From positions 1-59,948 of the forward strand of contig JAFYBZ010000017.1 in the NCBI GenBank assembly GCA_017539905.1: a stretch of 59,948 nucleotides of DNA, in the 5' to 3' direction. Source of the DNA: Clostridia bacterium. Its GTDB lineage: Bacteria > Bacillota > Clostridia > TANB77 > UBA1234. A model generated the notes under the pieces. That model was given only the letters and a program-made list of their open reading frames with translations, did not search any database and was not told where the DNA came from. Of this stretch, positions 1 through 28,100 are shown piece after piece (positions within the stretch are counted from its first letter, which is position 1; every line of letters begins with the position of its first letter). A program made the position numbers and the translations under genes.

Positions 1-2
1 AA

Positions 3-107
3 ATAGGTAGTATGAGTCGAGACTCGGATAGGAACGAGAGAATGCGCAGGAGATTATCAGCACTATTTTCTAAATATTATGTAAAAGAGAGGAATTTTAC
101 ATCATGA
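3..107 (+). CDS. 3' end of an upstream gene (partial, uncertain)
   Basis: The frame is open from the window edge and stops at TGA 105-107. It overlaps the next ATG (104) as ATGA, the coupling pattern used throughout this phage. The visible C-terminus is basic and arginine-rich. Nothing identifies a function. It could be chance, because a short hairpin (GAGTC/GACTC) lies in the same bases and could belong to an RNA. Confidence 0.35.
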   Translation: MGSMSRDSDRNERMRRRLSALFSKYYVKERNFTS

Positions 108-433
108 AAATTATAAGTGAAAAAACTGGAAAAGAATATCCAAATGTTGAACTTTGCCTCGCCGCAGAAAAGGAATACGACGACAAAATCGCATAGGCAG
201 AAAAAGAAAAAGAAGCTCTTGCTGTGAAAAAGGAAGCAGAAATTGCAGCTCGTAAAGAAGCAGCAGCAGCAGTTGAAGAGAAACGTAAAGCTCTTCTTTC
301 AGCCGAAGAAGAGTTTCGTAAAGAACTTGCTAAGTTCTGTGAAAAGTATGGTGCTTATCATTATACCATTAAAAATGGAGATGAATCTTGGGCACAACTC
401 TTTGACAACTTCTGGAATCACTTCTGGTTTTAA
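104..433 (+). CDS. Small coiled-coil phage protein, unknown function
   Basis: 109 residues starting MKIISEKTGKEY. Residues 20-75 are a highly charged Lys/Glu/Ala segment predicted to be helical or coiled coil. The C-terminus is aromatic (NFWNHFWF). One in-frame TAG at 194-196 is read as Gln. AGAGAGGA lies about 10 bases before the ATG. The gene is followed by a GC-rich hairpin and the tRNA cluster. No function is recognised. Confidence 0.75.
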
Positions 434-442
434 ACTGGACTA

Positions 443-461
443 GGGGCTACACCCTAGCCCC
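443..461 (+). terminator. GC-rich hairpin after first gene
   Basis: A 7-bp perfect stem (GGGGCTA/TAGCCCC, loop CACCC) lies between the stop at 433 and tRNA-Trp at 469. It is followed by AATTTAT rather than a clean T run, so it may be a weak terminator or a processing boundary for the tRNA transcript. Confidence 0.5.
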
Positions 462-468
462 AATTTAT

Positions 469-543
469 AGGCCTCTGGTGCAACGGTAACATGCCGGCCT
501 CCAAAGCCGTGAGATGTGGGTTCGAATCCTACGGGGCCTGCCA
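469..543 (+). tRNA. tRNA-Trp (CCA)
   Basis: Full cloverleaf. Acceptor AGGCCTC pairs with GGGGCCT (one U-G), the anticodon loop CTCCAAA has anticodon CCA, the T arm contains GGTTCGAATCC, the discriminator is G and CCA is encoded. Confidence 0.93.
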
Positions 544-567
544 ACACAAATTAAAAATATATACTAC

Positions 568-596
568 TTGATTTTTTAAAAAAAATTTGATATAAT
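568..596 (+). promoter_or_regulatory. sigma70-type promoter
   Basis: TTGATT (568-573), 17-base A/T spacer, TATAAT (591-596). It reads into the RNA element at 615 and the tRNA-Val/Pro/Arg cluster. Confidence 0.8.
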
Positions 597-614
597 ATAT
601 ATAGAAAGTTAAGA

Positions 615-780
615 AAGACCTATACAGCAATTTTCTTTTAGATTAATAAAGAAGATACAAAAAGGGCTTACGGGTCCACCGAAGCGCGGGGAAGTTCTTC
701 GTGATCGTCAGTGTGAGTTTGAAAATAGAGGGTACTTTGTAGCATTGAGTAGATTAAATAAGGAAACTCTATTAGGTCTT
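615..780 (+). ncRNA. Unknown structured RNA with ACAGCAA-box frame
   Basis: The outer stem is 8 bp, AAGACCTA (615-622) pairing perfectly with TAGGTCTT (773-780). The box ACAGCAA (624-630) lies just inside its 5' strand, as in the two permuted tRNA genes nearby. The roughly 140-base interior contains a GCTTACGG/CCGAAGC hairpin (A bulge) and a possible AATAG(AG)/CTCTATT pairing. It has no T-arm consensus, so it is not evidently a tRNA. It starts about 20 bases after a strong promoter. The cargo RNA is unidentified. Confidence 0.6.
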
Positions 781-830
781 GTGTGTGATAATGGAAGAAT
801 GTGCATTAAAATATCACTCTTCCACTATAT

Positions 831-908
831 GCGGATATAGTTTAACTGGTTAAAACATATGCCTTACAAGCATGAGACGTCGCGGTTCAAGTCCGTGTAT
901 CCGCACCA
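831..908 (+). tRNA. tRNA-Val (TAC)
   Basis: The acceptor GCGGATA pairs with TATCCGC over 7 bp. The anticodon loop has TAC between ATGC and GCAT stem strands, the T arm contains GGTTCAAGTCC, and CCA is encoded. It sits 50 bases downstream of the unknown RNA element. A 6-bp ACGACG/CGTCGT hairpin follows it at about 910-935. Confidence 0.93.
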
Positions 909-957
909 TTACGACGGTTAGGTATTCGTCGTGGTTTATTTCCTTTCTAATTGTATA

Positions 958-1018
958 TAGACTCATACAGCAATTTAATTTGGGATAGACTGTTAATCTA
1001 TAATTCAAATCGAGTCTA
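958..1018 (+). ncRNA. Compact tRNA-like element, anticodon-like GUU
   Basis: A perfect 7-bp terminal stem (TAGACTC 958-964 / GAGTCTA 1012-1018) encloses an excellent anticodon-type stem-loop (ATAGA / CTGTTAA / TCTAT, 985-1001) with GTT at the anticodon position. A short CAA/TTG stem could stand for a D arm. Only about 10 bases replace the T arm and no CCA is encoded. The box ACAGCAA (967-973) after the first strand places it in the same family as the permuted tRNAs. It may be a minimal tRNA-Asn, a decoy, or an element whose cargo is only an anticodon arm. Confidence 0.5.
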
Positions 1019-1028
1019 GTTAATATAT

Positions 1029-1104
1029 TCGGGTGTACGCCAACTGGTAGACGGCTAGATTTGGGATCTAGAGGCTGGGAGTTCGAACCTCCCCACTCGA
1101 ACCA
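1029..1104 (+). tRNA. tRNA-Pro (TGG)
   Basis: The acceptor TCGGGTG pairs with CACTCGA (one G-U). The anticodon stem CTAGA/TCTAG carries TGG, the T arm is GAGTTCGAACCTC and CCA is encoded. Confidence 0.93.
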
Positions 1105-1107
1105 GTA

Positions 1108-1220
1108 AAGACACACACAGCAAATATTAAGTCTAATCTTAATACCATCGGTTCAAATCCGATCATGTGTACAGCACACGTAGCTTAGTAGGATAAAGCA
1201 TAAGAATTAAAGCGTGTCTT
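1108..1220 (+). tRNA. Circularly permuted tRNA-Arg (TCT), 3' half before 5' half
   Basis: The 3' half comes first: anticodon bases TCT (1132-1134), AA, anticodon stem strand TCTTA (1137-1141), variable ATACC, T arm ATCGG/TTCAAAT/CCGAT (1147-1163) and acceptor CATGTGT (1164-1170). After ACA comes the 5' half: acceptor GCACACG (1174-1180), TA, D arm GCTT...AAGC (1183-1199), A, stem TAAGA (1201-1205) and loop AT. Joined as 5' then 3' half, TAAGA pairs with TCTTA over 5 bp and the loop reads AT-TCT-AA. The acceptor pairs at 6 of 7 positions. The precursor is closed by AAGACAC (1108-1114) / GTGTCTT (1214-1220), with ACAGCAAAT at 1117-1125. CCA is not encoded, unlike in all the ordinary tRNAs here. 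A functional product would need cleavage and ligation. Confidence 0.8.
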
Positions 1221-1247
1221 GTTGTTTTTTAAAAGAAGGGGATTAAA

Positions 1248-1457
1248 ATAGAAAAGAAGGAAAGATTACATTTAGCCACACCAGGAGCAGTATATTTTTT
1301 AACTAATCGTAAATTAGTTTATGATCTTGTAAATACTGGAAATTTTAATTTAATTAAAACATATTTTTCTAATCAATATAAGAAATGGTGGGAATTTTGG
1401 AAATTAAAAAAACCAGTTGGTTATGAAATAATGTGTATTAGAGATTTAGAAGCATAA
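1248..1457 (+). CDS. Small hypothetical protein with unusual start
   Basis: The open frame runs from after TAA 1230 to TAA 1455-1457 and encodes about 70 residues, ending in KKPVGYEIMCIRDLEA. Sensible amino-acid composition (aromatic cluster YKKWWEFWKL) argues that it is coding. There is no ATG, GTG or TTG near the strong ribosome site GAAGGGG (1235-1241). The codon at the right distance is ATA (1248), with ATT (1242) also in frame. Function unknown. Confidence 0.55.
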   Translation: MEKKERLHLATPGAVYFLTNRKLVYDLVNTGNFNLIKTYFSNQYKKWWEFWKLKKPVGYEIMCIRDLEA

Positions 1458-1470
1458 AACAAAAATATAT

Positions 1471-1544
1471 AGCCCCGTAGTGTAATGGTAACACGCGAGA
1501 CTTTGAATCTTAAGTTCCTAGTTCAAATCTAGGCGGGGCTGCCA
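1471..1544 (+). tRNA. tRNA-Gln (TTG)
   Basis: The acceptor AGCCCCG/CGGGGCT is 7 bp. The anticodon loop CTTTGAA has TTG, the T arm is CTAGTTCAAATCTAG, the discriminator is G73 and CCA is encoded. It reads CAA and CAG and complements the separate CUA-anticodon tRNA that reads TAG. Confidence 0.92.
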
Positions 1545-1554
1545 CAGAAGCATT

Positions 1555-1778
1555 AGGAATGGAAACCCTATATAAGTCTTTGGTGTTTAAGCCAGGAGGT
1601 AGGATTAGAAGTGTCCACCCTTTAAAGAGTGATTTGAGGGGCGCAACAAGTCTTTGGTATGTAACACACTGGCTGGGTTTGCGGTGATCCTAAAAACCGG
1701 ATGGCCCCTAACTGCTAAAAAGCGATGCCACTGGGCGACGAATGGGAGGACCCAGGCTAATATAACCTCCCGTATAAT
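1555..1778 (+). ncRNA. Part of a large structured RNA (candidate), upstream segment
   Basis: No coding frame is evident, but many complementary blocks are: AGCCAG with CTGGCT, ATCC with GGAT, GGGGC with GCCCC, CTGGG with CCCAG and GGGAGG with CCTCCC. The 11-base block AAGTCTTTGGT occurs twice. GC content is above the surroundings. Large ornate RNAs (for example the GOLLD and ROOL classes) are known next to phage tRNAs. This may be such an RNA, but class membership cannot be shown here. Confidence 0.5.
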
Positions 1779-1902
1779 GGGGAACTAGGCGAAGTGGTAC
1801 AGCCGCGTATTGACATTGTCTAGTTATAGACAGAGACTGCAATTCTTTCTTGCTTGCTTTTGGAGCACGTGTTTTGAGGTTCGAATCCTCAGTTCCCCAC
1901 CA
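1779..1902 (+). tRNA. tRNA with about 50-base insertion in the anticodon arm
   Basis: The acceptor GGGGAAC/GTTCCCC is perfect. The D arm GGC...GCC, T arm TGAGGTTCGAATCCTCA, discriminator A and encoded CCA are all normal, but the gene is 124 bases long. The anticodon stem seems to join CGT (or CGCGT) to ACG (or ACGTG) across the extra segment. The insertion holds a TGTCT/AGACA hairpin (1817-1832) and then ACTGCAATT (1836 on), the same order as the flanks of the permuted tRNAs. Identity is uncertain: one consistent join gives a TTG (Gln) loop, others give Pro, Leu or Val anticodons. Confidence 0.75.
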
Positions 1903-1904
1903 AG

Positions 1905-2280
1905 TTTAACAGTTTAAACAAAGCAAGGATCATTACATTAACCTTGTGGATGAGGCTAAGTAACATTAGGCTATATAAACTGTTTACCGTAGAGAAAATT
2001 GAGTATTGGCGGTAGTTCTTATGCGGGCAGATACAAGTATAAGCGCGCACAGTAGCGAAAGTGCTGTTATATTGGATAGTGGTTACAATTTATTAATGAT
2101 TATAAATGAATGATGAAAATTATTATTGTTTGACTTACTCCAATTAAGTATCAGATAATGATTAGTAATCGAAAAGCCCTTTATTCTTCTTTGAGGTAGG
2201 TAGGTTGATTGAAGAGTATGTTATTTATATATAGGACATATGGCGTTCAATGTTAGCAAAGAAGGTAAAGGGTTTTTTTA
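1905..2280 (+). ncRNA. Large structured RNA (candidate) ending in terminator
   Basis: These 375 bases have no plausible gene. Pairings include AACAGTTTA with TAAACTGTT around a CAAGG/CCTTG hairpin (1907-1985). The 3' end is closed by CCCTTTATTCTTCTTTG (2177-2193) against CAAAGAAGGTAAAGGG (2257-2272), followed by a run of seven T, which is a plausible intrinsic terminator with a long internal loop. With 1555-1778 this may be one RNA interrupted by a tRNA, or an independent transcript. Confidence 0.5.
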
Positions 2281-2303
2281 TTATCTTTGCAAAGGATTAA
2301 CAT

Positions 2304-2657
2304 ATGAAAGAAATTATTTATAAAATTAGATATTTTATTGACGTTTATATTGTTTTTCCAATTAAACGATGGTGGAATTATCATGTAAAAGGATTATATG
2401 TTCCAAATAATATGCGTAGTTAGGCTTTATTAGAATATTGTGAAAAAGTAATTAAAGATAATAATTATCAACCGCAAGGCGCATATGAACATTCATTTGA
2501 ACAACGATTATATGAATCATATTTAAAAGTAATTGAAAATTTAAAAGCAATGTATCCAAAGGATGATTTTACTTGGTTAAAATATGAAGATGAACGCCAA
2601 TATTGTGCGGGTAGGATTTATGAATTATTAGTACAAATGCCTTGGGTAGATGAATAA
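2304..2657 (+). CDS. Hypothetical protein, 117 aa
   Basis: Starts MKEIIYKIRYFIDVYIVFP, so the N-terminus is hydrophobic and may associate with membrane. It is followed by a Tyr/Glu-rich helical body. One in-frame TAG (MRS-Gln-ALLEYC) is read as Gln. AAAGGA lies before the ATG, directly after the terminator of the structured RNA. No family is recognised. Confidence 0.75.
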
Positions 2658-2662
2658 ATGAG

Positions 2663-2691
2663 TTGAAATTTTATAAAAAAAATGATATAAT
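2663..2691 (+). promoter_or_regulatory. sigma70-type promoter
   Basis: TTGAAA (2663-2668), 17-base spacer, TATAAT (2686-2691), ahead of the 2733 operon. Confidence 0.8.
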
Positions 2692-2732
2692 ATATATGTA
2701 AAAAATAATTGATTTAAAAAGGAATTGATGTT

Positions 2733-3074
2733 ATGAAAAATTATCCGATTGATAAGTACCGTTTTTATGATGCTGGCAATAAGATTATTGCTGTGTCTAC
2801 TTATGCTGGCAAGCAGGTCCGTGGAGTTGCAATTTGCCATCCTGATGATGAGTTTGATATTGAAACTGGTAAGAAGATTGCCGCAGCTCGTTGTAATTAT
2901 CGTATTGCAAATAAGCGATATGAACGCGCTCAGGCAAAGTATGCAGAAGCACAGAAACAGCTTATTAGCGCTCAGCAGTATCTTGATAAGATGAAAGAAT
3001 ATATGACTGATTCTTTTCTTGCTGCGAATGAAGCAGCACAATTTTGTGATAATATTATAAAGGAGATTGCGTAA
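2733..3074 (+). CDS. Hypothetical protein, 113 aa
   Basis: The first 45 residues look globular (MKNYPIDKYRFYDAG). Residues 50-100 are an Ala/Lys/Gln-rich helix, probably coiled coil. It overlaps the next ATG by one base (TAATG), so the two are co-translated. No TAG codons. Function unknown. Confidence 0.85.
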   Translation: MKNYPIDKYRFYDAGNKIIAVSTYAGKQVRGVAICHPDDEFDIETGKKIAAARCNYRIANKRYERAQAKYAEAQKQLISAQQYLDKMKEYMTDSFLAANEAAQFCDNIIKEIA

Positions 3075-3265
3075 TGGACGAAAAAACTATTGATGTAAAT
3101 ATTAGTTTTTATGAAAATCCTGGAGATCGTAGTACTAATATTCAGTTCCATGCTAAGGATGAAGAGCTTAGTATTGAAGAATTTGTTGGATACATGAAAC
3201 GCGCTTGCCTTGCCTATGGTTTTTCTGAAAGTGATGTTTCACGTATTACAATTGGAGCAAATTAA
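3074..3265 (+). CDS. Hypothetical protein, 63 aa
   Basis: A short acidic protein beginning MDEKTIDVNISFYENPGD, with a predicted alpha/beta composition. It is coupled to the upstream gene and ends right before the amber-suppressor tRNA region. Function unknown. Confidence 0.8.
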   Translation: MDEKTIDVNISFYENPGDRSTNIQFHAKDEELSIEEFVGYMKRACLAYGFSESDVSRITIGAN

Positions 3266-3431
3266 ATGTGCGGTTGGCTGACCTTAAAGCCAATATATTG
3301 GGGTGTGGTGTAAAGGTAAGTCACTACGGTCTCTAAAACCGTAGGTCTGAGTTCGAGTCTCAGCGCCCCTGCCAAAACACTCGATAGCAAATAAGAGTAT
3401 AAACGGATGTGCGGCCGGCGGACCTAAGCGC
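3266..3431 (+). repeat. Direct repeat pair flanking the amber tRNA
   Basis: Two copies of ATGTGCGGyyGGCkGACCT(T)AAGC lie at 3266-3291 and 3407-3431, on either side of the tRNA at 3299-3374, with most positions identical. They could mark acquisition of the tRNA by a recombination or insertion event, or be two copies of a leader or processing site. Confidence 0.55.
3299..3374 (+). tRNA. Amber suppressor tRNA (CTA), probably charged with Gln
   Basis: 76 bases. The anticodon stem ACGGT/ACCGT encloses CTCTAAA, with CTA at 3333-3335, complementary to UAG. The T arm is CTGAGTTCGAGTCTCAG and CCA is encoded. The acceptor has a U1-U72 mismatch followed by GGGG/CCCC pairs, and the discriminator is G73. 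A weak 1-72 pair and G73 are known features favouring glutaminyl-tRNA synthetase, which matches Gln at recoded TAG positions. This is the decoding basis for the recoded genes across the window. Confidence 0.93.
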
Positions 3432-3464
3432 TATCCCCTTCCTTTTAAAGGAGTTGATATAATA

Positions 3465-3782
3465 ATGAAACGAGGCCGTGCTTGGCGTAGATATAAAAAT
3501 TATACTAAAGCCAAAAGGAAGAAAGAATTAGATAAAGATATTCATTTACGCAGCTGGTATGGTAATATGTATGGGTAGCCTTGGTATGATAATTTACATC
3601 AATATAGTAAAAATACTATTTTTTGTAGTTGTCATATGTGTAGTGCAAAAACTCGTAATAAAGGTAAACGTAGGCATTTATAGGGAAATTATGCACCATC
3701 TATAAATTATAGTTATGCAGATATACGCAAAATGATGCGCATGGCGGCAAATGAAAAAGAATATTATAATGAAAATAATTAA
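3465..3782 (+). CDS. Basic hypothetical protein with CxCxxC motif
   Basis: 105 residues starting MKRGRAWRRYKNYTKAKR. The N-terminus is strongly basic and the middle carries CSCHMCSAKTRNKGKRR, suggesting a small metal- and nucleic-acid-binding protein. Two in-frame TAG codons are read as Gln. AAAGGAG precedes the ATG. No certain family. Confidence 0.8.
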
Positions 3783-3792
3783 AATTTCTTAC

Positions 3793-3821
3793 TTGAAATT
3801 TTAAAAAAAAAATGATATAAT
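3793..3821 (+). promoter_or_regulatory. sigma70-type promoter
   Basis: TTGAAA (3793-3798), 17-base spacer, TATAAT (3816-3821). It lies about 20 bases before the permuted tRNA-Phe and would transcribe Phe, Leu and Lys together. Confidence 0.8.
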
Positions 3822-3839
3822 ATATATATAAGATAAATA

Positions 3840-3963
3840 AAGACATATACAGCAAATTCTCTTTTAAGAGGTTACAGGTTCAAATCCTGTAGTTGGGGTG
3901 TCCCAATTTGGCGGAATGGTTTACGCGATAGTCTGAAAAACTATTATCTTAATTTTGTGTCTT
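3840..3963 (+). tRNA. Circularly permuted tRNA-Phe (GAA), T arm before D and anticodon arms
   Basis: The order on the DNA is variable loop AGGTT, T arm ACAGG/TTCAAAT/CCTGT (3874-3890), acceptor AGTTGGG (3891-3897), G, TGT, then acceptor CCCAATT (3902-3908), TG, D arm GCG...CGC (3911-3926), G, and anticodon arm ATAGT/CTGAAAA/ACTAT (3928-3944) with GAA at 3935-3937. The acceptor strands pair at 7 of 7 positions (one U-G). The break falls in the variable loop, whereas tRNA-Arg is broken in the anticodon loop. Outer strands AAGACAT (3840-3846) and GTGTCTT (3957-3963) pair, and ACAGCAAAT follows the first. No CCA is encoded. Confidence 0.85.
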
Positions 3964-3971
3964 GTTAATAT

Positions 3972-4058
3972 GCGGGCGTGGCGGAATAGGTAGACGCAGC
4001 GGACTTAAAATCCGCTGGTCGTGAGGCCGTGGGGGTTCGAGTCCCCCCGCCCGCACCA
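3972..4058 (+). tRNA. tRNA-Leu (TAA)
   Basis: The acceptor GCGGGCG/CGCCCGC is perfect. The anticodon arm GCGGA/CTTAAAA/TCCGC carries TAA, there is a long class II variable arm, and CCA is encoded. It starts 9 bases after the permuted tRNA-Phe precursor. Confidence 0.95.
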
Positions 4059-4090
4059 TTGAGCAAGATTTGATTCTTGCTTATTTTTAT

Positions 4091-4167
4091 GCGCCATTAG
4101 CTCAGTAGGCTAGAGCACCGCACTTTTAATGCGGGTGTCCGCGGTTCGAATCCGCGATGGCGCACCA
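4091..4167 (+). tRNA. tRNA-Lys (TTT)
   Basis: The acceptor GCGCCAT/ATGGCGC is 7 bp. The anticodon loop CTTTTAA carries TTT, the T arm is GCGGTTCGAATCCGC, and CCA is encoded. Confidence 0.95.
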
Positions 4168-4214
4168 AAAATTTTTTTTAAATAAAAATCGTACTTAAGT
4201 TTTGCAAACTAGAG

Positions 4215-4242
4215 TTGCATTAAAAAATTTTTTTGTTATAAT
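4215..4242 (+). promoter_or_regulatory. sigma70-type promoter, variant
   Basis: TTGCAT (4215-4220), 16-base spacer, TATAAT (4237-4242), before the GIY-YIG gene. The -35 and spacer differ from the phage consensus. Confidence 0.65.
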
Positions 4243-4266
4243 TATTATAGAAAGAGATTATTGATA

Positions 4267-4680
4267 ATGAATTCAAAAATGAGTAAAGCATTTTCAAAAT
4301 TATCAACAGATATTAAATTAAATATTTCAGATTTTGATGCTTTAATGAACTTAGGAATGTATCAAGACCCTTCTAAAGGCGGTATCTATATATGCATATA
4401 TTTAAAAGATCCACGGTATGTCTATATTGGACGTACAGTTGATTTTAATACTCGCTGGTATAAACAACATGAAAGACAACTTCAGTATAATACTCATTGT
4501 GGATATTTTCAAAAATTTTTTAATGATAATAATTGTTCTGTAGATGATTTTGAATGGCAAATTTTAGAACCACTTCCAATTAATGACATTAAATTAATGG
4601 AAGCACATGAAAAAGCTTGGATTAGAAAATATGATAATGATGATAATTATATTTTATTAAATTCACAGAAATATAGATAA
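4267..4680 (+). CDS. GIY-YIG domain protein
   Basis: 137 residues. Residues about 40-60 carry GGIYICIY...YVYIGRT, the GIY-YIG nuclease core, followed by RW..H. It lacks the DNA-binding modules of the four other GIY-YIG genes here, so it may be a solo nuclease or a degenerate homing enzyme. ATG 4267 was preferred over TTG 4261 because AAAGAG is correctly spaced for it. It sits just before the methylase genes, so a restriction-related role is conceivable but unproven. Confidence 0.75.
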   Translation: MNSKMSKAFSKLSTDIKLNISDFDALMNLGMYQDPSKGGIYICIYLKDPRYVYIGRTVDFNTRWYKQHERQLQYNTHCGYFQKFFNDNNCSVDDFEWQILEPLPINDIKLMEAHEKAWIRKYDNDDNYILLNSQKYR

Positions 4681-4692
4681 AGAGGAGATAAA

Positions 4693-6012
4693 ATGGAATT
4701 AGAATATATTAAAATTATTAAAACTACAGCTCAAATTATTCATAATTTTATATATAATAATATTAAATTATCAGATCAAGAGCATGCGACTTTTATTGCT
4801 GGATCGTTGATTGCTTTACAAGATGCTACTTTTAGAGCAACATATAAAACAGATTATCAAAATGATCCTGACTATTTTGTTGAGAGTATGATGAGTGCTA
4901 TTAAGCATAGCATTAAATCTTTAAAAGGATTCGACATTCCTGAAAAACAAGATATTATTATTGCTGAATTTGATTTTATCGGTAGAAATGAACAATTAAA
5001 AAATATTGTTATTGATGAAGGAAAAGAAAAACCTGCAATTCAAGCATTGCTAGAAAAACTTGAAAATATCTTTACTTTAGCTAAAACATATCCTGAATAT
5101 GATATTCTTGGAGTATTTTATGATCAATTTAAAAAATACTCTGCAAGTGATCAACAAAGTTTAGGTATTGTATTAACTCCATATCATGTTTCAGATTTTA
5201 TGGCTACTTTACTCAATATTACTCCTGATGATGTTGTATTAGATACCTGTTGTGGTTCATCTTCTTTGCTTTTAACTGCAGGTAGTAAAGCAAAATATTC
5301 TTTAGGCGTTGAATTGAATTCAAGAATGACATCAATTTCTATTGCTAATATGGTAATTAAAAATTTGCCTACTCATTTATGGTTAGGTAATAGTTTTGAT
5401 TTTGATATTAAAAATGAAATTAGGAAATATCATCCAACAAAATTAATTATCAATCCTCCATATGCACAACAAGAAAAAGAATTAAGTTTTGTAGAAAATG
5501 GACTTGATCTTCTTGAACCTAATGGTCTTGGAGTTGTAATTATGCCTGTTAGTTGTGCTAATAAGCAAGATATTGAAACTAAAGCATTAAGAAAAAGTAT
5601 TCTTTCTAAACATACTTTACTTGCATCTTTTGTTATGCCAGAACAACTCTTTGCTCCTGCTGTTGGTGTTAATACAATTATTTGTTTATTTAAAGCTCAT
5701 GTTCCTAATGAGAATTATAGTACATTCCTTGGATATATTAAGGATGATGGATTTGAATTAAGTAAATCTGAAGGACGTATTGATAAAAATAATAAATGGC
5801 CTGATATTAAAAAAGAATTCTTAGATTTATATAATAATAAACAGGATATGAATAAAAAATCTGTAAATGCTATTATTAAACCAGAAGCTGAATGGTCTAT
5901 TATTTCATATCTAAATATTCATGAAAGCGTATATGAAGATTCATTCTTTATTCCATATTTACAGCAATATCTAATGTATCAAATTCAAAGTGGAGGAAAA
6001 GTAAATGTTTAA
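4693..6012 (+). CDS. Type I-like N6-adenine DNA methyltransferase (HsdM-like)
   Basis: 439 residues. The SAM-binding motif is LDTCCGSSSL (about residues 180-190). The catalytic motif NPPY is at 254-257, followed by the HsdM-typical GLGVVIMPVSC and MPEQLF segments. The reaction is adenine N6 methylation of DNA, directed by the specificity subunit encoded directly downstream (8-base overlap). No HsdR-like nuclease is visible, so the likely role is self-protection against host restriction. No TAG codons. AGAGGAG precedes the ATG. Confidence 0.9.
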   Translation: MELEYIKIIKTTAQIIHNFIYNNIKLSDQEHATFIAGSLIALQDATFRATYKTDYQNDPDYFVESMMSAIKHSIKSLKGFDIPEKQDIIIAEFDFIGRNEQLKNIVIDEGKEKPAIQALLEKLENIFTLAKTYPEYDILGVFYDQFKKYSASDQQSLGIVLTPYHVSDFMATLLNITPDDVVLDTCCGSSSLLLTAGSKAKYSLGVELNSRMTSISIANMVIKNLPTHLWLGNSFDFDIKNEIRKYHPTKLIINPPYAQQEKELSFVENGLDLLEPNGLGVVIMPVSCANKQDIETKALRKSILSKHTLLASFVMPEQLFAPAVGVNTIICLFKAHVPNENYSTFLGYIKDDGFELSKSEGRIDKNNKWPDIKKEFLDLYNNKQDMNKKSVNAIIKPEAEWSIISYLNIHESVYEDSFFIPYLQQYLMYQIQSGGKVNV

Positions 6013-6556
6013 GATTATTGAAGAGATAAAATCTCCAAAAAATATAGAAAAGGTAGAATTACCAGAAGTTAAAGACTGGAAAGATTTTACATATGGAGAA
6101 TTATTTCAAATTAGTCGTGGCAATCCTCCACTCACAGCTGCAGAATCTAAAAAACCAGAAAATCAAGGCTCAACTCCTTTTGCTGGTGCTGCAAAAGATG
6201 GGAATGGAATAACTGCTTTTATTAATAAACCTGCTACATATAAAGAAAATGCTATTACTGTTGGTAATTCTGGTAATGGCGGTGCAGGTTTAGCATTTTA
6301 TCAACCATTGCCATTTTGCGCAGGCAATACAGTAAATATTCTTTATGGTAAAGATTTTGTAATTAATTCAAGTATTGGATTATTTCTTTGTGCTATTATT
6401 TCACAAGAACATTATAAATATAATCATGGACAAGGATGGGGAATAACCCGTATGAAAGAATCTAAAATTAAACTTCCTGCAACATATGAAGGTAAACCCA
6501 ATTGGAAGTTGATTGAAGATTATATTAATTCTTTACCATATTCAAAATACATTTAA
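6005..6556 (+). CDS. HsdS-like half specificity subunit
   Basis: 183 residues. Residues about 25-180 match the pattern of one type I target-recognition domain (WKDFTYGELFQISRGNPP, then GNSGNGGAG, and a closing MKESKIKLPAT). Normal HsdS has two such domains, so this half-subunit would dimerise or specify a short or palindromic site. It overlaps the methylase stop, consistent with coupled translation. Function as methylase partner is inferred from fold motifs and position. Confidence 0.8.
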   Translation: MFKIIEEIKSPKNIEKVELPEVKDWKDFTYGELFQISRGNPPLTAAESKKPENQGSTPFAGAAKDGNGITAFINKPATYKENAITVGNSGNGGAGLAFYQPLPFCAGNTVNILYGKDFVINSSIGLFLCAIISQEHYKYNHGQGWGITRMKESKIKLPATYEGKPNWKLIEDYINSLPYSKYI

Positions 6557-6563
6557 AAAATAC

Positions 6564-6592
6564 TTGATTTTTTAAAAAAATTTTGATATAAT
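6564..6592 (+). promoter_or_regulatory. sigma70-type promoter
   Basis: TTGATT (6564-6569), 17-base spacer, TATAAT (6587-6592). The leader contains a GGCTCT-GATA-AGAGCC hairpin at 6621-6636, just before the ribosome site of the Ro-like gene, which may modulate its expression. Confidence 0.8.
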
Positions 6593-6661
6593 ATATATAG
6601 AAATTAAGAAATAAACCTACGGCTCTGATAAGAGCCAAGAGAAAAAGGAGATAAATAAAAT

Positions 6662-8188
6662 ATGAACACTTTGCTTAATGGTATGAAGAACGCAACCAAT
6701 TATACCTACACTGAAAATGGTGCGCTGACTCATAAGAGCACTATGTCTGGTCTGCTTGACCTTTTTGGCATGGGTGCGGCTTATCGTACTCGTAGTAATG
6801 AAGACTGCATTGTTCTTTTTGAAGATGCTTTCAAGGAAGATAAAGCATATGCTCTAAAGTGCCTTTTCTATCTGCGTGATATCCGTGGCGGCCAGGGCGA
6901 GCGTCGTTTCTTTCGTGTTGTAACTAAGTATCTTGCAAACAAGCACACTGATGCTATGTCTCGCAACCTTCGCTATGTGCCTGAGTTTGGACGCTGGGAT
7001 GACCTTTATGTCTTTGTCGGCACTAAGCTGGAGAAGCAGGCTTTTGATCTTATGAAGGCTCAGCTTATGCTGGATGTTGAGTGCAAGACTCCTTCTCTTC
7101 TTGCTAAGTGGCTGAAGAGTGAGAATACTTCAAGCACTGAGTCCCGTGCCCTCGCAAATAAGACCCGTGCTGCTTTTGGTATGAATCATCGTCAGTACCG
7201 TAAGACCCTTTCTGTGCTTCGTGAGCGTATCAATGTTCTTGAACGTCTTATGAGCGCCGGTAAGTGGGATGAAATCGAGTTCGATAAGATTCCTTCTAAG
7301 GCTGGTTTCCAGTATCGTAATGCTTTTGCGCGTCATGATATTGAGCGCATGAAGAGTGAGAAGCAGGTTCGTACTTACGAAGACTTTATGAAGGATGATA
7401 GTACCAAGGTTAATGCCAAGGATCTTTATCCTTATGAAGTTGTTGCTAAGGCTTATAATCTTACTCATAGCGGGTATTCTTATTGGAATAGTCGTCAGGA
7501 CTATGACTTTGAAGATAGTACCGAGCGTCGTGCGATTAATAAGTACTGGGATAATCTTACTGATTATTTCAATGGGTGTACCCTTGATGCTCTCTGCATG
7601 ATTGATACCTCTGGTTCCATGTGGGGAAGTGAAGCTAGCGCACCTATTAATGTCGCTATTTCAATCGGTCTTTATGCGGCAGAGCGTGCTCGTGGTCCTT
7701 TTGCTGGTCATTACATTTCCTTCTCTAGTCAGCCTCAGCTGATTGAGACTAAGGGTGTTGATTTCTGCGATAAGGTACAGCGCATTTACAAGACCAACCT
7801 TTGCGAGAATACTAATATTGAAGCTGCCTTTGATATGATTCTCGATACTGCGCTTCGTACTCGTTGTAAGCAGAGTGATCTACCTGGCACCATTATCGTG
7901 GTAAGCGATATGGAATTCGATTCCCAGCGTGGGTACTATGGTCGTAGCACTAATACTTTGATGGAAAACATTGAAGCTAAGTGGCGCCAGTATGGATATA
8001 AGATGCCTAATCTCGTCTACTGGAATGTTCAGGCTCGCCAGAACAATATTCCTATGACTATAAAGGATGGAGTAACTTATGTTTCTGGTTTCAGCCCTGT
8101 TCTGTTTGAGCAGATCATGAAGGGCAAGACCGCCTGGGATCTTGTCAAGGATAAGCTTGATAGTGAGCGTTATGCTTGTATCAAGTAA
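6662..8188 (+). CDS. DUF2828/TROVE-like vWA protein (Ro60-related)
   Basis: 508 residues, no TAG. The N-terminal two thirds are helical repeats with the signature FYLRDIRGGQGERRFFR. The C-terminal part is a von Willebrand A domain with MIDAS motif DTSGSM (315-320) and the later SDMEF. This matches the DUF2828 family, a relative of the Ro60/TROVE RNA-binding proteins, which bind Y RNAs and misfolded small RNAs. Codon use is more GC-rich than neighbouring genes. Proximity to the tRNA and structured-RNA cluster makes an RNA-handling role attractive, but this is inference. It has its own promoter and terminator. Confidence 0.85.
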   Translation: MNTLLNGMKNATNYTYTENGALTHKSTMSGLLDLFGMGAAYRTRSNEDCIVLFEDAFKEDKAYALKCLFYLRDIRGGQGERRFFRVVTKYLANKHTDAMSRNLRYVPEFGRWDDLYVFVGTKLEKQAFDLMKAQLMLDVECKTPSLLAKWLKSENTSSTESRALANKTRAAFGMNHRQYRKTLSVLRERINVLERLMSAGKWDEIEFDKIPSKAGFQYRNAFARHDIERMKSEKQVRTYEDFMKDDSTKVNAKDLYPYEVVAKAYNLTHSGYSYWNSRQDYDFEDSTERRAINKYWDNLTDYFNGCTLDALCMIDTSGSMWGSEASAPINVAISIGLYAAERARGPFAGHYISFSSQPQLIETKGVDFCDKVQRIYKTNLCENTNIEAAFDMILDTALRTRCKQSDLPGTIIVVSDMEFDSQRGYYGRSTNTLMENIEAKWRQYGYKMPNLVYWNVQARQNNIPMTIKDGVTYVSGFSPVLFEQIMKGKTAWDLVKDKLDSERYACIK

Positions 8189-18318: not shown

Positions 18319-19071
18319 ATGCCAGTACATGATGATTTAGGCAACCGTATGAAAAAGTATGAAGCAGTATCAAAAACTTGTCTTATGACTCGTACTCCTG
18401 TTGCAATTCGTGTTGACGGGAAAGCATTTCATACTTTTACTAAACAACTTAATAAACCTTTTGATAGTGTTTTTGTAAATGCTATGATTCAAACAATGGA
18501 AACTATGTGCGAAAAAATTCAAAATTGTATTTTTGGATATGTACAGAGTGATGAAATTACTTTTATTTTAAAAGATTATGAACAGTTAAATACTTCTGCT
18601 TGGTTTGACAATGAAGTTCAAAAACTCTGTTCAGTTTCAGCAAGTATGGCAACATATTACTTTAATGTCTATTTCCGTGAAAAAGCAGAACATATCATTG
18701 CTACTAGCCCTAATAGTGAATATAGTGATATTCTTCGTAGAACTATAATTTCACCTGCTATGTTTGATGCTCGTTGTTTTAACATTCCAAGAGAGGAAGT
18801 AATTAACCTTATCTATTGGCGGCAACTTGATGCCGTGCGCAATTCTATCCAAGCGGCCGGCCAAGCAAAATTTTCACATAAGCAGCTTATGGGTAAATCA
18901 TGTAAAATGATTAAAGAAATGCTTGAAGAAAATGGAACTCCTTGGGAAAATTTTCCTACTTATTTACAGCGTGGTACATGCGCTATTAGAGAAGGAAAAG
19001 AATGGATTACTGATTATAGCATGCCAATGCTAGTAAAAGAAGGTAGGGAATATCTTGAAGCTCTCATATGA
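18319..19071 (+). CDS. thg1: Thg1-family tRNA 3'-5' nucleotidyltransferase
   Basis: 250 residues, no TAG. DLGNRMKKYE at 6-15, RVDGKAFHTFTK with metal ligand D33, and QSDEITF with D78/E79 are the Thg1 catalytic signature. The family adds G(-1) to tRNA-His or, in bacterial and phage relatives, repairs 5'-truncated tRNAs by templated 3'-5' addition. AAAGGAG precedes the ATG. In this phage it would complement the RNA ligase and kinase genes. Which activity it has cannot be told from sequence. Confidence 0.93.
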   Translation: MPVHDDLGNRMKKYEAVSKTCLMTRTPVAIRVDGKAFHTFTKQLNKPFDSVFVNAMIQTMETMCEKIQNCIFGYVQSDEITFILKDYEQLNTSAWFDNEVQKLCSVSASMATYYFNVYFREKAEHIIATSPNSEYSDILRRTIISPAMFDARCFNIPREEVINLIYWRQLDAVRNSIQAAGQAKFSHKQLMGKSCKMIKEMLEENGTPWENFPTYLQRGTCAIREGKEWITDYSMPMLVKEGREYLEALI

Positions 19072-26107: not shown

Positions 26108-26884
26108 ATGGGTTATATTTATAAAATTACTAATAAAATTAATGGTAAAGTGTATATAGGTCAAACTGCAAAAACTATTGAAGAACGATTTTAGGCACAT
26201 TTAGCCAAAGCCAGATAGCATACTAACCGTTATCTATATGATGCTATGAATAAATATGGATATGATAATTTTATTATTACAGAAATTGAACAATGTAATA
26301 ATAATAAATTAGATGAAAGAGAAATTTATTGGATAGCATATTATAAATCTAATAATAAAAAATATGGGTATAATATGACTGCTGGTGGTGGTGGAGGAGA
26401 TACTTGGACTAATAATCCTAATAAAAAAGAAATTTCTAAAAAACTTAGTCAAGCACAAAAAGGTAAAAAACATCAAATGTCAACTGAATGGAAACAAAAA
26501 ATTACTCAAATGAATAAAGAGGAAAAAACCATTTCAGTTAATAAAGATGATTTAAAAAAAGATATAAAAAATTTTATGTCTATTGAAGATATATGTAAAA
26601 AATATAATCTTAGTCGTAAAACTTTTTATAATAAATGTAAAGATTTTTTTAATGCTACTCCAACAGAAATTCGTGGAGATAAATTAACTCATACTAATAC
26701 TATGAAAATAGAATTAGATATAAAAAAAATAGAACAGTATATAAAAGAAGAAAAAACATTAAAAGAAATGGCTAAATTATTAAATGTTAGTCCAGAAACT
26801 GTTCGTAGAACTATTATAAAATATTATGGAAAAACTTTAAAGGAGGTAAGAAAAGATGTTAAATCCAAAAACTCAACAGCGTGA
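26108..26884 (+). CDS. GIY-YIG homing endonuclease
   Basis: 258 residues with TAG read as Gln twice. MGYIYKITNKINGKVYIGQT is the GIY-YIG core. ERE and GYNMTAGG follow, then a linker and two helix-turn-helix repeats (IEDICKKYNLSRKTFYNK and LKEMAKLLNVSPETVRR) for DNA recognition. It lies between a promoter and the RNA ligase and overlaps the ligase start by 29 bases, so it has captured the upstream side of that gene. Confidence 0.9.
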
Positions 26885-28100
26885 ATTAGCATATGTAGTG
26901 CTTATTGATGGTATTGAACCAATTGTTGGTTCAGATAATTGTGAATGTGCTGTTGTTGGTGGTTGGCATATTATGGTAAGAAAAGGCCAATTTGATGTAG
27001 GAGATCCCGGCATCTATTTTGAAATTGATAGTAAGGTTCCTAATACTAATCCTGCTTTTGCTTTCCTTGAAAAGCGCAATTATAAGATTAAGACCCAAAA
27101 ATATACTTTTGGTGGAAAAGGAAATTTTATTTCACAAGGTCTTCTTATGCATGCCGAAGATTTTGGTTGGAAAAATGGCCTTGATGCGGACGGGCATACT
27201 CTTATTTATGACCCCAAGGATAACTCTCGTTTCTGGTACGCCGATGGCGAAGATCGTTTCCTTACCAAAGAACTTGGTGTAACTTATGCGGACGCAGAGG
27301 ATAACCAGCGCAAGGCTCCTTCTGTGGACAAGTATAAGAAGATGGCACAGCGTCATCCTGAGATTTTCCGCAAGCCTTTCGTGCGTTGGCTTATGAAGCG
27401 TCAGTGGGGTAAAGACATTATGTTCTTCCTCTTCGGTAAGAAGAAGGATAAGAAGAACGGTTGGCCTGAGTGGGTGTCAAAAACTGATGAAGAAAGAATT
27501 GAATGCATCCCTTGGACTTTAAAAAATAAAGACCCTTGGGTTATTACTGAAAAAGTTGATGGAAGTAGCACAACTTTCACTATGAAACGTGGTAAACGCG
27601 GCAAAGTAGATTTTTATGTTTGCTCTCGTAATGTTTGTTTTGATAGTATTGATAAACCTTGCTATTATGAAACTAATGTTTACTGGGAAATGGCACAAAA
27701 ATATGGAATGTTTGATGTTCTTAAACATCTTCTTGATATTATGCCAGAAGCAGAATGGGTAACTATTCAAGGTGAAACTTATGGCCCATCTGTACAGAAA
27801 AATACCTATGATCTTACTGACCGCGAATTTCGTGCATTTAATCTTATTGTTTCTAATCGTGGCCGTTTAGGTAGTAAAGAAATGGCTGATATTCTTTGGG
27901 ATTGTGGAGTGCCTTGTGTCCCTATTCTTGATGATGCATTTATTCTTCCTGATACTGTTGAAGAATTACGCGACTATGTAAATAGCGAGCCTTCTGTTAT
28001 TAATGGTAAAATTAAAGAAGGCATTGTATGTCGTTCTCAAGATGGCGTACAGTCCTTTAAATGTGTATCTCCTGAGTACTTACTCAAATTCCATAGCTAA
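26856..28100 (+). CDS. ATP-dependent RNA ligase (DRB0094/Rnl5-like)
   Basis: 414 residues, no TAG. Residues 1-100 resemble the OB-type N-terminal domain of Deinococcus-type RNA ligase (RELAYVVLIDGIEPIVGSD). The nucleotidyltransferase domain has motif I TEKVDGSS with adenylated Lys233, GETYG (E307) and EGIVCR (388 on), and motif V with Lys402 (SFKCVS). It seals 3'-OH/5'-phosphate RNA ends. A segment near 27250-27480 has a more GC-rich codon style than the flanks. AAGGAGG lies inside the end of the preceding endonuclease gene. It is the natural sealing enzyme for the permuted or interrupted tRNAs, or for nicked tRNAs. Confidence 0.92.
   Translation: MLNPKTQQRELAYVVLIDGIEPIVGSDNCECAVVGGWHIMVRKGQFDVGDPGIYFEIDSKVPNTNPAFAFLEKRNYKIKTQKYTFGGKGNFISQGLLMHAEDFGWKNGLDADGHTLIYDPKDNSRFWYADGEDRFLTKELGVTYADAEDNQRKAPSVDKYKKMAQRHPEIFRKPFVRWLMKRQWGKDIMFFLFGKKKDKKNGWPEWVSKTDEERIECIPWTLKNKDPWVITEKVDGSSTTFTMKRGKRGKVDFYVCSRNVCFDSIDKPCYYETNVYWEMAQKYGMFDVLKHLLDIMPEAEWVTIQGETYGPSVQKNTYDLTDREFRAFNLIVSNRGRLGSKEMADILWDCGVPCVPILDDAFILPDTVEELRDYVNSEPSVINGKIKEGIVCRSQDGVQSFKCVSPEYLLKFHS

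Follow-up and report, generated by a model that had tools for sequence, protein, structure and literature searches.

Positions 1108–1220 of the window, a 59,948-nucleotide (nt) stretch of phage DNA forming contig JAFYBZ010000017.1, very probably encode a phage Y RNA, whose end stem and ACAGCAA motif would serve as docking site for a predicted Ro60-like protein while the rest would be a tRNA mimic with its parts in the order of the Y RNA YrlA; we put the probability of this reading at roughly 0.85. Four elements of this type lie in the window (Table 1). All four have an end stem and motif, together called the handle below, in common with elements near predicted Ro60-like genes of other phages. 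Their products are therefore likely Y RNAs, tRNA mimics docked on that protein, and not tRNAs joined for translation.

A preliminary description had taken 1108–1220 for a tRNA-Arg(UCU) gene in two swapped halves, broken in the anticodon loop. The halves are present at these positions in permuted order, as is the 5-base-pair (bp) stem TAAGA/TCTTA. The strands of the proposed loop AT-TCT-AA are present as well, but the loop itself would form only after cutting and rejoining of the RNA, and no joining was seen here.

Architecture of the elements and conservation of their stems

Read along the + strand, the 1108 element runs AAGACAC-ACACAGCAA, TCTTA, T-arm, 3' acceptor strand, linker, 5' acceptor strand, D-arm, TAAGA and GTGTCTT-GTT. 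The minimum-energy folds of the 1108 and 3840 elements are each one closed RNA with the end stem, P1, at the base. In the fold of 1108–1220, TCTTA pairs with sequence just upstream and not with TAAGA; the 5-bp stem may accordingly represent one of two alternative states. ARAGORN, run on the window, called no tRNA at 1108–1220.

The Rfam model of YrlA (RF02553) matched end to end at 1117–1228, with 35.3 bits and an expectation value (E) of 1.2e-6. Since the YrlA consensus consists of a closing stem, T-arm, capped acceptor, D-arm and closing stem, the apparent permutation is the normal order of that RNA. According to PMC8394870, YrlA pairs its 5' and 3' ends into a stem that binds Rsr, a Ro60 homolog, and has a D/T/acceptor-like domain that binds PNPase. 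The 1108 element has such an end stem (P1, 7 bp), the T/acceptor/D order and the gene of a predicted Ro60 homolog nearby, and by analogy it most likely works like a YrlA. It shares with YrlA (RF02553; Salmonella YrlA 6CU1, cited in PMC8394870) the end stem enclosing T-arm, capped acceptor and D-arm. In the phage RNAs, however, ACAGCAA takes the place of the YrlA consensus in the end stem, and there are elements with an additional complete anticodon arm, with a different opening point in the tRNA, with normal order or with nothing but an anticodon loop.

The motif AGACNNAYACAGCAA occurs four times in the contig, at 616, 959, 1109 and 3841, and at all four sites the 7-mer leading into it has a complementary 7-mer downstream, followed by GT. 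The P1 arms are, in contig order, AAGACCT/AGGTCTT, TAGACTC/GAGTCTA, AAGACAC/GTGTCTT and AAGACAT/GTGTCTT; as the arms differ among the elements, it is the pairing that is kept, not the letters. A further exact copy of the motif, on contig C35 of the assembly, lacks a partner arm. The phage carries at least three kinds of element: the one at 1108 has a tRNA body without anticodon arm, the one at 3840 has both, and the one at 958 has an anticodon arm without a body.

P1 is a real stem. In 80 IMG/VR loci chosen by the protein (the best 80 of 319), AYACAGCAA sites, with no stem required, number 95 on the strand of the gene and 2 on the opposite strand; a perfect 7-bp partner lies within 280 nt of 59 of the 95, whereas register-shifted 7-mers gave 10.6 and upstream 7-mers 5.6. 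In an alignment of nine sequences of the 3840 type, initially read as tRNA-Phe, P1, the T-stem and the anticodon stem are paired in 97.4% of cells and 24 changes affect both sides of a pair, neither value being reached in any of 500 shuffles; one row of this alignment, L034, is misaligned at the 3' end of P1.

The closest relatives found show the same pattern. That of the Phe element, L032, is nearly identical to it, but the triplet GAA has become AGA while P1 is compensated from AAGACAT/GTGTCTT to AAGGCAT/GTGCCTT; other relatives have the triplets GAT, GTT, GTA and TAA, and L015 lacks U33. In L082, the closest relative of the 1108 element, the closing stem is TCGACAC/GTGTCGA and the 5-bp stem, AAAGA/TCTTT, is kept by paired changes, so relatives preserve the helix that had been predicted. 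The same join there gives AGT, not TCT, which argues against a tRNA-Arg(UCU) gene with joined halves.

Covariation of this kind also bears on the idea that the elements are functionless relics of tRNA genes, decaying after recombination within a tRNA array. Some bodies do have mismatches or have lost U33 or the anticodon arm, and tandem tRNA genes could yield swapped halves by chance. Against this, the stems covary, phages of many hosts retain the flanks and the strand, and swapped bodies are far above shuffles in two element sets, making relics a very unlikely explanation.

Association with a Ro60-like protein gene

The gene of a 508-residue protein, whose homology to Ro60 rests on predicted structure, lies 5.4 kilobases (kb) downstream of the 1108 element on the same strand. 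The protein is predicted to have the Ro60 fold, a ring of helical repeats plus a vWA domain. A first structure model was poor (predicted local distance difference test score, pLDDT, 69), and its top Foldseek rows were nonetheless Ro60. D315, S317 and S319 of the vWA metal-site motif DxSxS are invariant in 43 sequences. Identity to Ro60/Rsr (PDB 1yvp and 2nvo, and Ro60 of Thermus phage phiLo, 9l5y) is about 9–18% in structural alignments, and in Pfam the protein belongs to DUF2828/DUF7788, unlike Ro60/Rsr, which belong to TROVE. Comparison with solved structures by sequence only gave no Ro60 match for the protein, and an NCBIfam search of it gave no match. Ro60-like proteins occur in 682 of 50,697 phage records.

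Elements and gene occur together. Scanning IMG/VR for the motif plus GTCTTGTT at tRNA-like spacing returned 19 records, several again with swapped tRNA halves; DUF7788 is encoded in 17 of them, the two misses being fragments of 7.6 and 5.9 kb. Among the four records returned by a scan for a normal-order form with an intron, DUF7788 is encoded in one. The latter result bears on a small or permuted intron, group I or other, whose parts would flank exons. Such an intron would fit the shared flanks and, judged from sequence, the G before both presumed 3' halves, but three of those four records lack DUF7788, the flanks total under 50 nt, and no intron family was detected in the window at gathering score or over 1–4300 at E up to 5; we consider it hardly credible.

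In the 80 loci, a search allowing at most one mismatch found 80 elements on the gene's strand and none on the other, in 49 loci, against 1 in reversed sequences, and exact motifs numbered 33 in 21 loci, against 0. Two mismatches gave 154 elements in 64 loci, a noisy level, as the control gave 27 in 23 of 80 loci. A wider definition gave 196 elements on the gene's strand and 20 on the opposite one, and 61 of the 80 loci then contained one or more. The records are partly non-independent: L006 and L018 share elements, as do L012 and L017, and several anticodon-loop elements are near copies.

Among defined phages with the gene, 11 of 12 have at least one element nearby; 33 elements are on the strand of the gene and 1 is on the opposite strand, against 2 in reversed sequence. 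Element-bearing phages are those of Bacillus, Mycobacterium, Listeria, Escherichia, Fusobacterium, Enterococcus, Staphylococcus, Cronobacter, Pseudomonas, Vibrio and Campylobacter. The evidence from Fusobacterium and Vibrio phages is a single weak match apiece, and under a stricter listing the Fusobacterium phage has none. In Escherichia phage dune (Felixounavirus, record MN850636), a permuted element lies at L112:10355-10480. The gene-bearing Prevotella phage Lak-B7 has no element near the gene. None of four control regions, three with tRNA arrays or pairs and one with a single tRNA, contains an element.

Also, a near-identical extended −10 promoter-like sequence is present in 11 copies in the window, all on the + strand (for example 2662–2697). 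The pattern was written from its three exact matches (567, 3792 and 6563), the other eight copies being looser and elsewhere in the window. That the same promoter-like sequence precedes both the elements and the Ro60-like gene is a hint of co-expression.

Several observations weigh against the Y RNA reading. The YrlA score of 35.3 bits is under the Rfam curated cut-off of 69, so the 1108 element is not filed as RF02553, and the model places its outer stem on ACAGCA/TTGTTGT, not on P1. The Phe element had no YrlA match at E up to 1, and a YrlA search of L109, L110 and L090 gave one weak match (28.5 bits, E 0.049); matches this sparse indicate that RF02553 is a poor detector here. In the Phe-type alignment, further pair types are not above shuffles (175 of 500), and the fold of 958–1018 is not better than shuffles (z −1.3). 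Pfam TROVE (PF05731) had no match in the window protein at E 0.001 and was found in 0 of 23 records. Finally, depending on the definition used, 15 to 31 of the 80 gene-bearing loci have no element. A weak YrlA match in the tRNA-Leu/Lys region (4008–4141, E 4.1) looks like chance.

Phage Y RNAs in mycobacteriophages were reportedly described by Chen et al. in 2014, a study cited in PMC12282133. Like those, and like a suggested Y RNA of Listeria phage CKA15, the present elements are Y RNA candidates near a phage Ro-like gene, and Mycobacterium phage Wilder and Listeria phage A511 each have an element near their Ro-like gene. Phage Ro60-like proteins and phage Y RNAs are therefore known, as excerpts of PMC7824862, PMC7765460 and PMC12282133 record. 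We did not find variable opening points or anticodon-loop Y RNAs described in the open-access literature searched.

tRNA bodies and anticodon loops on a common handle

Among 270 distinct elements with the same flanks (those of L020–L027 left out), 57 hold a permuted tRNA body, 21 a body in normal order and 192 none by the test used. Shuffles gave 2 bodies in 1350, and a reversed control gave 24 matches, so about one in eleven elements may be chance. New scans, whose counts cover the matches listed, gave a further 160 long elements, 55 with a permuted body, 29 with a normal-order one and 76 with none (control, 5 of 480). The tRNA is opened in the anticodon stem or loop in 35 of the 57 permuted elements, in the variable loop behind a whole anticodon arm in 9, before the anticodon arm in 8 and at an unclear point in 5. 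The earlier claims that the 1108 and 3840–3963 elements are broken at different points within flanks identical in kind, and that permutation follows the flanking element and not one tRNA lineage, are both borne out in the sequence.

Circularly permuted tRNA genes are known from algae and archaea. A true gene of this type would have its ends brought together by the flanking stem, its halves joined in the anticodon or variable loop by an endonuclease and a ligase, and its linker trimmed, giving a decoding tRNA-Arg(UCU) or tRNA-Phe. As in the algal and archaeal genes, the 3' half precedes the 5' half across a short linker, and the tRNA-like parts are complete apart from their order. Some relatives have N-CCA in the linker (16 of 57 in the first set, 20 of 55 in the second), with CCA at or beside the tRNA 3' end, for example at L044:326, L085:9823 and L126:8154. 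This is far above the random expectation of about 1 in 64, so many bodies probably come from ordinary tRNA genes, or the linker is cut. The window linkers are ACA and GTGT, however, against CCA in all 7 ordinary tRNAs of the window and in 522 of 743 across the loci. The phage has a tRNA-His guanylyltransferase-like protein and an RNA ligase (27531–28064), the ligase family recurring in 16 of 21 records (12 over the cut-off), whereas RtcB is present in 0 of 21 and T4-type Rnl1 in 2 of 21; with an RNA ligase encoded, enzyme grounds are not decisive against joining. The triplets change between near relatives while the stems are kept, so that the anticodon, unlike that of the algal and archaeal genes, is not conserved. 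In addition, the same flanks can enclose a normal-order tRNA, just an anticodon loop or nothing tRNA-like, and both the 192 body-less elements and the company of the Ro60-like gene speak against tRNA-Arg(UCU). We therefore hold a decoding tRNA to be improbable and retain the Y RNA reading.

ARAGORN reported 14 elements as tRNAs, classing 13 as normal order, and in the record of Mycobacterium phage Wilder an annotated tRNA-Asn lies inside an element (L110:7534-7604). Some phage tRNA annotations may thus be wrong, and, if the Y RNA reading is true, some tRNA-finder genes in phages, including the 14 here, would not be decoding tRNAs.

The 958 element holds only ATAGA-CTGTTAA-TCTAT; among its relatives the loop frame is constant and the stem varies by paired changes (L007 ATCAA-CTTTTAA-TTGAT, L050 ATCGA-CTGGTAA-TCGAT). 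An anticodon-loop hairpin occurs in 25 of 139 body-less elements (shuffle mean 3.75, highest 6, in 20 shuffles) and in 63 of 267 short elements from the new scans (shuffle mean 4.45, highest 9, in 20 shuffles). The latter 63 have 44 different stems, with CTTTTAA 21 times and CTGTTAA 9 times, some being near copies. When no stem was required, CTNNNAA heptamers in 358 short elements of both sets had 5 of 5 flanking pairs in 69 of 158 cases, against 4.4 when flanks were swapped among elements and 5/65, 3/59 and 1/70 for three control heptamers. DUF7788 is encoded in 15 of 18 tested records bearing anticodon-loop elements.

In our model, the 1108 element would be transcribed as one unspliced RNA, its 7-bp end stem and ACAGCAA would be bound by the Ro60-like protein from 6662–8188, and T-arm, acceptor and D-arm would form the tRNA mimic in YrlA order. 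By analogy with the published YrlA–Rsr–PNPase complex, this mimic may recruit or block a tRNA-acting enzyme.

We found no tested account of what phage Ro60-like proteins or their Y RNAs do for the phage. Our preferred guess, held with lower confidence than the Y RNA reading itself, is that the mimics act as decoy or bait for host tRNA nucleases during infection. This guess draws on four observations. First, the commonest anticodon loops are those of tRNA-Lys(UUU) and tRNA-Asn(GUU). Second, in excerpts of PMC12409363 (2025), PARIS AriB targets tRNA-Lys(UUU), Thr(UGU) and Asn(GUU) at the site U36AAUC|A41, and in those of PMC10264068 PrrC targets tRNA-Lys(UUU). Third, an excerpt of PMC7790460 suggests that YrlA might compete for an anticodon nuclease. 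Fourth, the RNA ligase and guanylyltransferase-like protein are what a phage fighting tRNA damage might encode. The exact AriB site is present in seven of the CTNNNAA hairpins counted above, where TAA is followed by TCAAT (4) or TCAAA (3), and the commonest sequence, TCTAT (11), does not form it. AriB is also reported to contact the D-loop (excerpt of PMC12409363), so a bare anticodon loop may not suffice as a decoy, and the element 615–780 is left unexplained by this role. As in defence-evading phage tRNAs (excerpts of PMC12409363 and PMC10264068), the anticodon arms are of the tRNA-Lys(UUU)/Asn(GUU) type that AriB targets, but in the present elements these arms are hairpins borne by a Ro60-type stem rather than parts of decoding tRNAs.

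Tentatively, the Ro60-like protein might be a carrier of interchangeable tRNA parts, evolution having fitted to a constant stem-plus-ACAGCAA handle a tRNA opened at various junctions, an entire tRNA or no more than an anticodon stem-loop. The anticodon-loop forms, mostly C-U-U-U-U-A-A (Lys) and C-U-G-U-U-A-A (Asn), would then bait host anticodon nucleases such as PrrC or PARIS AriB, as an anti-defence sponge; we rate this full version as possible but doubtful. If the Y RNA reading is right, the short handle would let such RNAs be found across unrelated phages, the anticodon-loop forms would make phage Y RNA function directly testable against tRNA-cutting defence systems, and the differently opened tRNA domains on one handle would offer a natural series for partner-enzyme recognition.

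Phage context and neighbouring features

The contig (C41), which is the whole window, is one of 42 contigs of a bacterial metagenome-assembled genome. The window is phage DNA, because its proteins have PHROG matches (endolysin, DnaB-like helicase, primase, topoisomerase II and RNA ligase), its long frames, read with table 15, contain in-frame TAG, and it has a tRNA with anticodon CTA at 3299–3374, labelled Pyl by ARAGORN. This tRNA and the in-frame TAG fit a phage in which TAG is translated, probably as Gln.

Table 1. Positions of the elements, their parts and neighbouring features in the window
Feature	Position	Strand	Remarks
Predicted Y RNA with tRNA body (no anticodon arm) in YrlA order	1108..1220	+	
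End stem P1, 5' strand AAGACAC	1108..1114	+	Pairs with 1214-1220; paired changes in relatives
Conserved motif ACAGCAA, predicted part of Ro60 docking site	1117..1123	+	
TCTTA, strand of anticodon-stem-like helix	1137..1141	+	Alternative partner upstream
T-arm ATCGG-TTCAAAT-CCGAT	1147..1163	+	From sequence
Acceptor stem 3' strand CATGTGT	1164..1170	+	
Linker ACA (no CCA)	1171..1173	+	
Acceptor stem 5' strand GCACACG	1174..1180	+	6/7 pairs with 3' strand
D-arm GCTT-AGTAGGATA-AAGC	1183..1199	+	
TAAGA, other strand of anticodon-stem-like helix	1201..1205	+	L082: AAAGA/TCTTT
End stem P1, 3' strand GTGTCTT, then GTT	1214..1220	+	
Second element: handle and bare anticodon stem-loop	958..1018	+	Stem-loop ATAGA-CTGTTAA-TCTAT at 985-1001
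Third element ('tRNA-Phe'): handle, permuted tRNA body, complete anticodon arm	3840..3963	+	Anticodon arm at 3928-3944
Fourth element: same handle, with insert	615..780	+	166 nt
Promoter-like site ahead of elements 615, 958 and 1108	567..602	+	
Promoter-like site ahead of element 3840	3792..3827	+	
Promoter-like site, same type, ahead of Ro60-like gene	6563..6598	+	
Gene of 508-residue predicted Ro60-like protein	6662..8188	+	Pfam DUF2828 and DUF7788
N-6 DNA methylase and type I specificity-like protein	4693-6556		Between elements and Ro60-like gene
tRNA-His guanylyltransferase-like protein (phrog_4717)	18319-19071		Possible tRNA-repair gene
RNA ligase (phrog_968)	26856-28100		Possible tRNA-repair gene

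Inside 615–780, a match to the Rfam DUF3800-XI RNA scored 25.0 bits, below its cut-off of 37.8. A tRNA-like gene at 1787–1903 ends in CCA and has acceptor, D- and T-arms and a Cys-type anticodon arm, AGAGA-CTGCAAT-TCTTT, with an extra stretch of about 27 nt on either side of that arm; it scored 20.8 bits against Rfam tRNA, below the cut-off. We rejected the idea of a tiny new tRNA intron with 1787–1903 as its normal-order form, since three of the four scan records are without DUF7788, and likewise ACTGCAA in 1787–1903 as an intron motif, since it is the anticodon loop of the Cys-type arm. The stretches 1545–1780 and 1980–2290, which adjoin the elements, look non-coding, and Rfam searches of them at E up to 1 returned nothing except the tRNA-like gene. 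Additionally, two element-bearing phage records contain ROOL RNA genes (L002:4082-4706 and L015:8713-9309).
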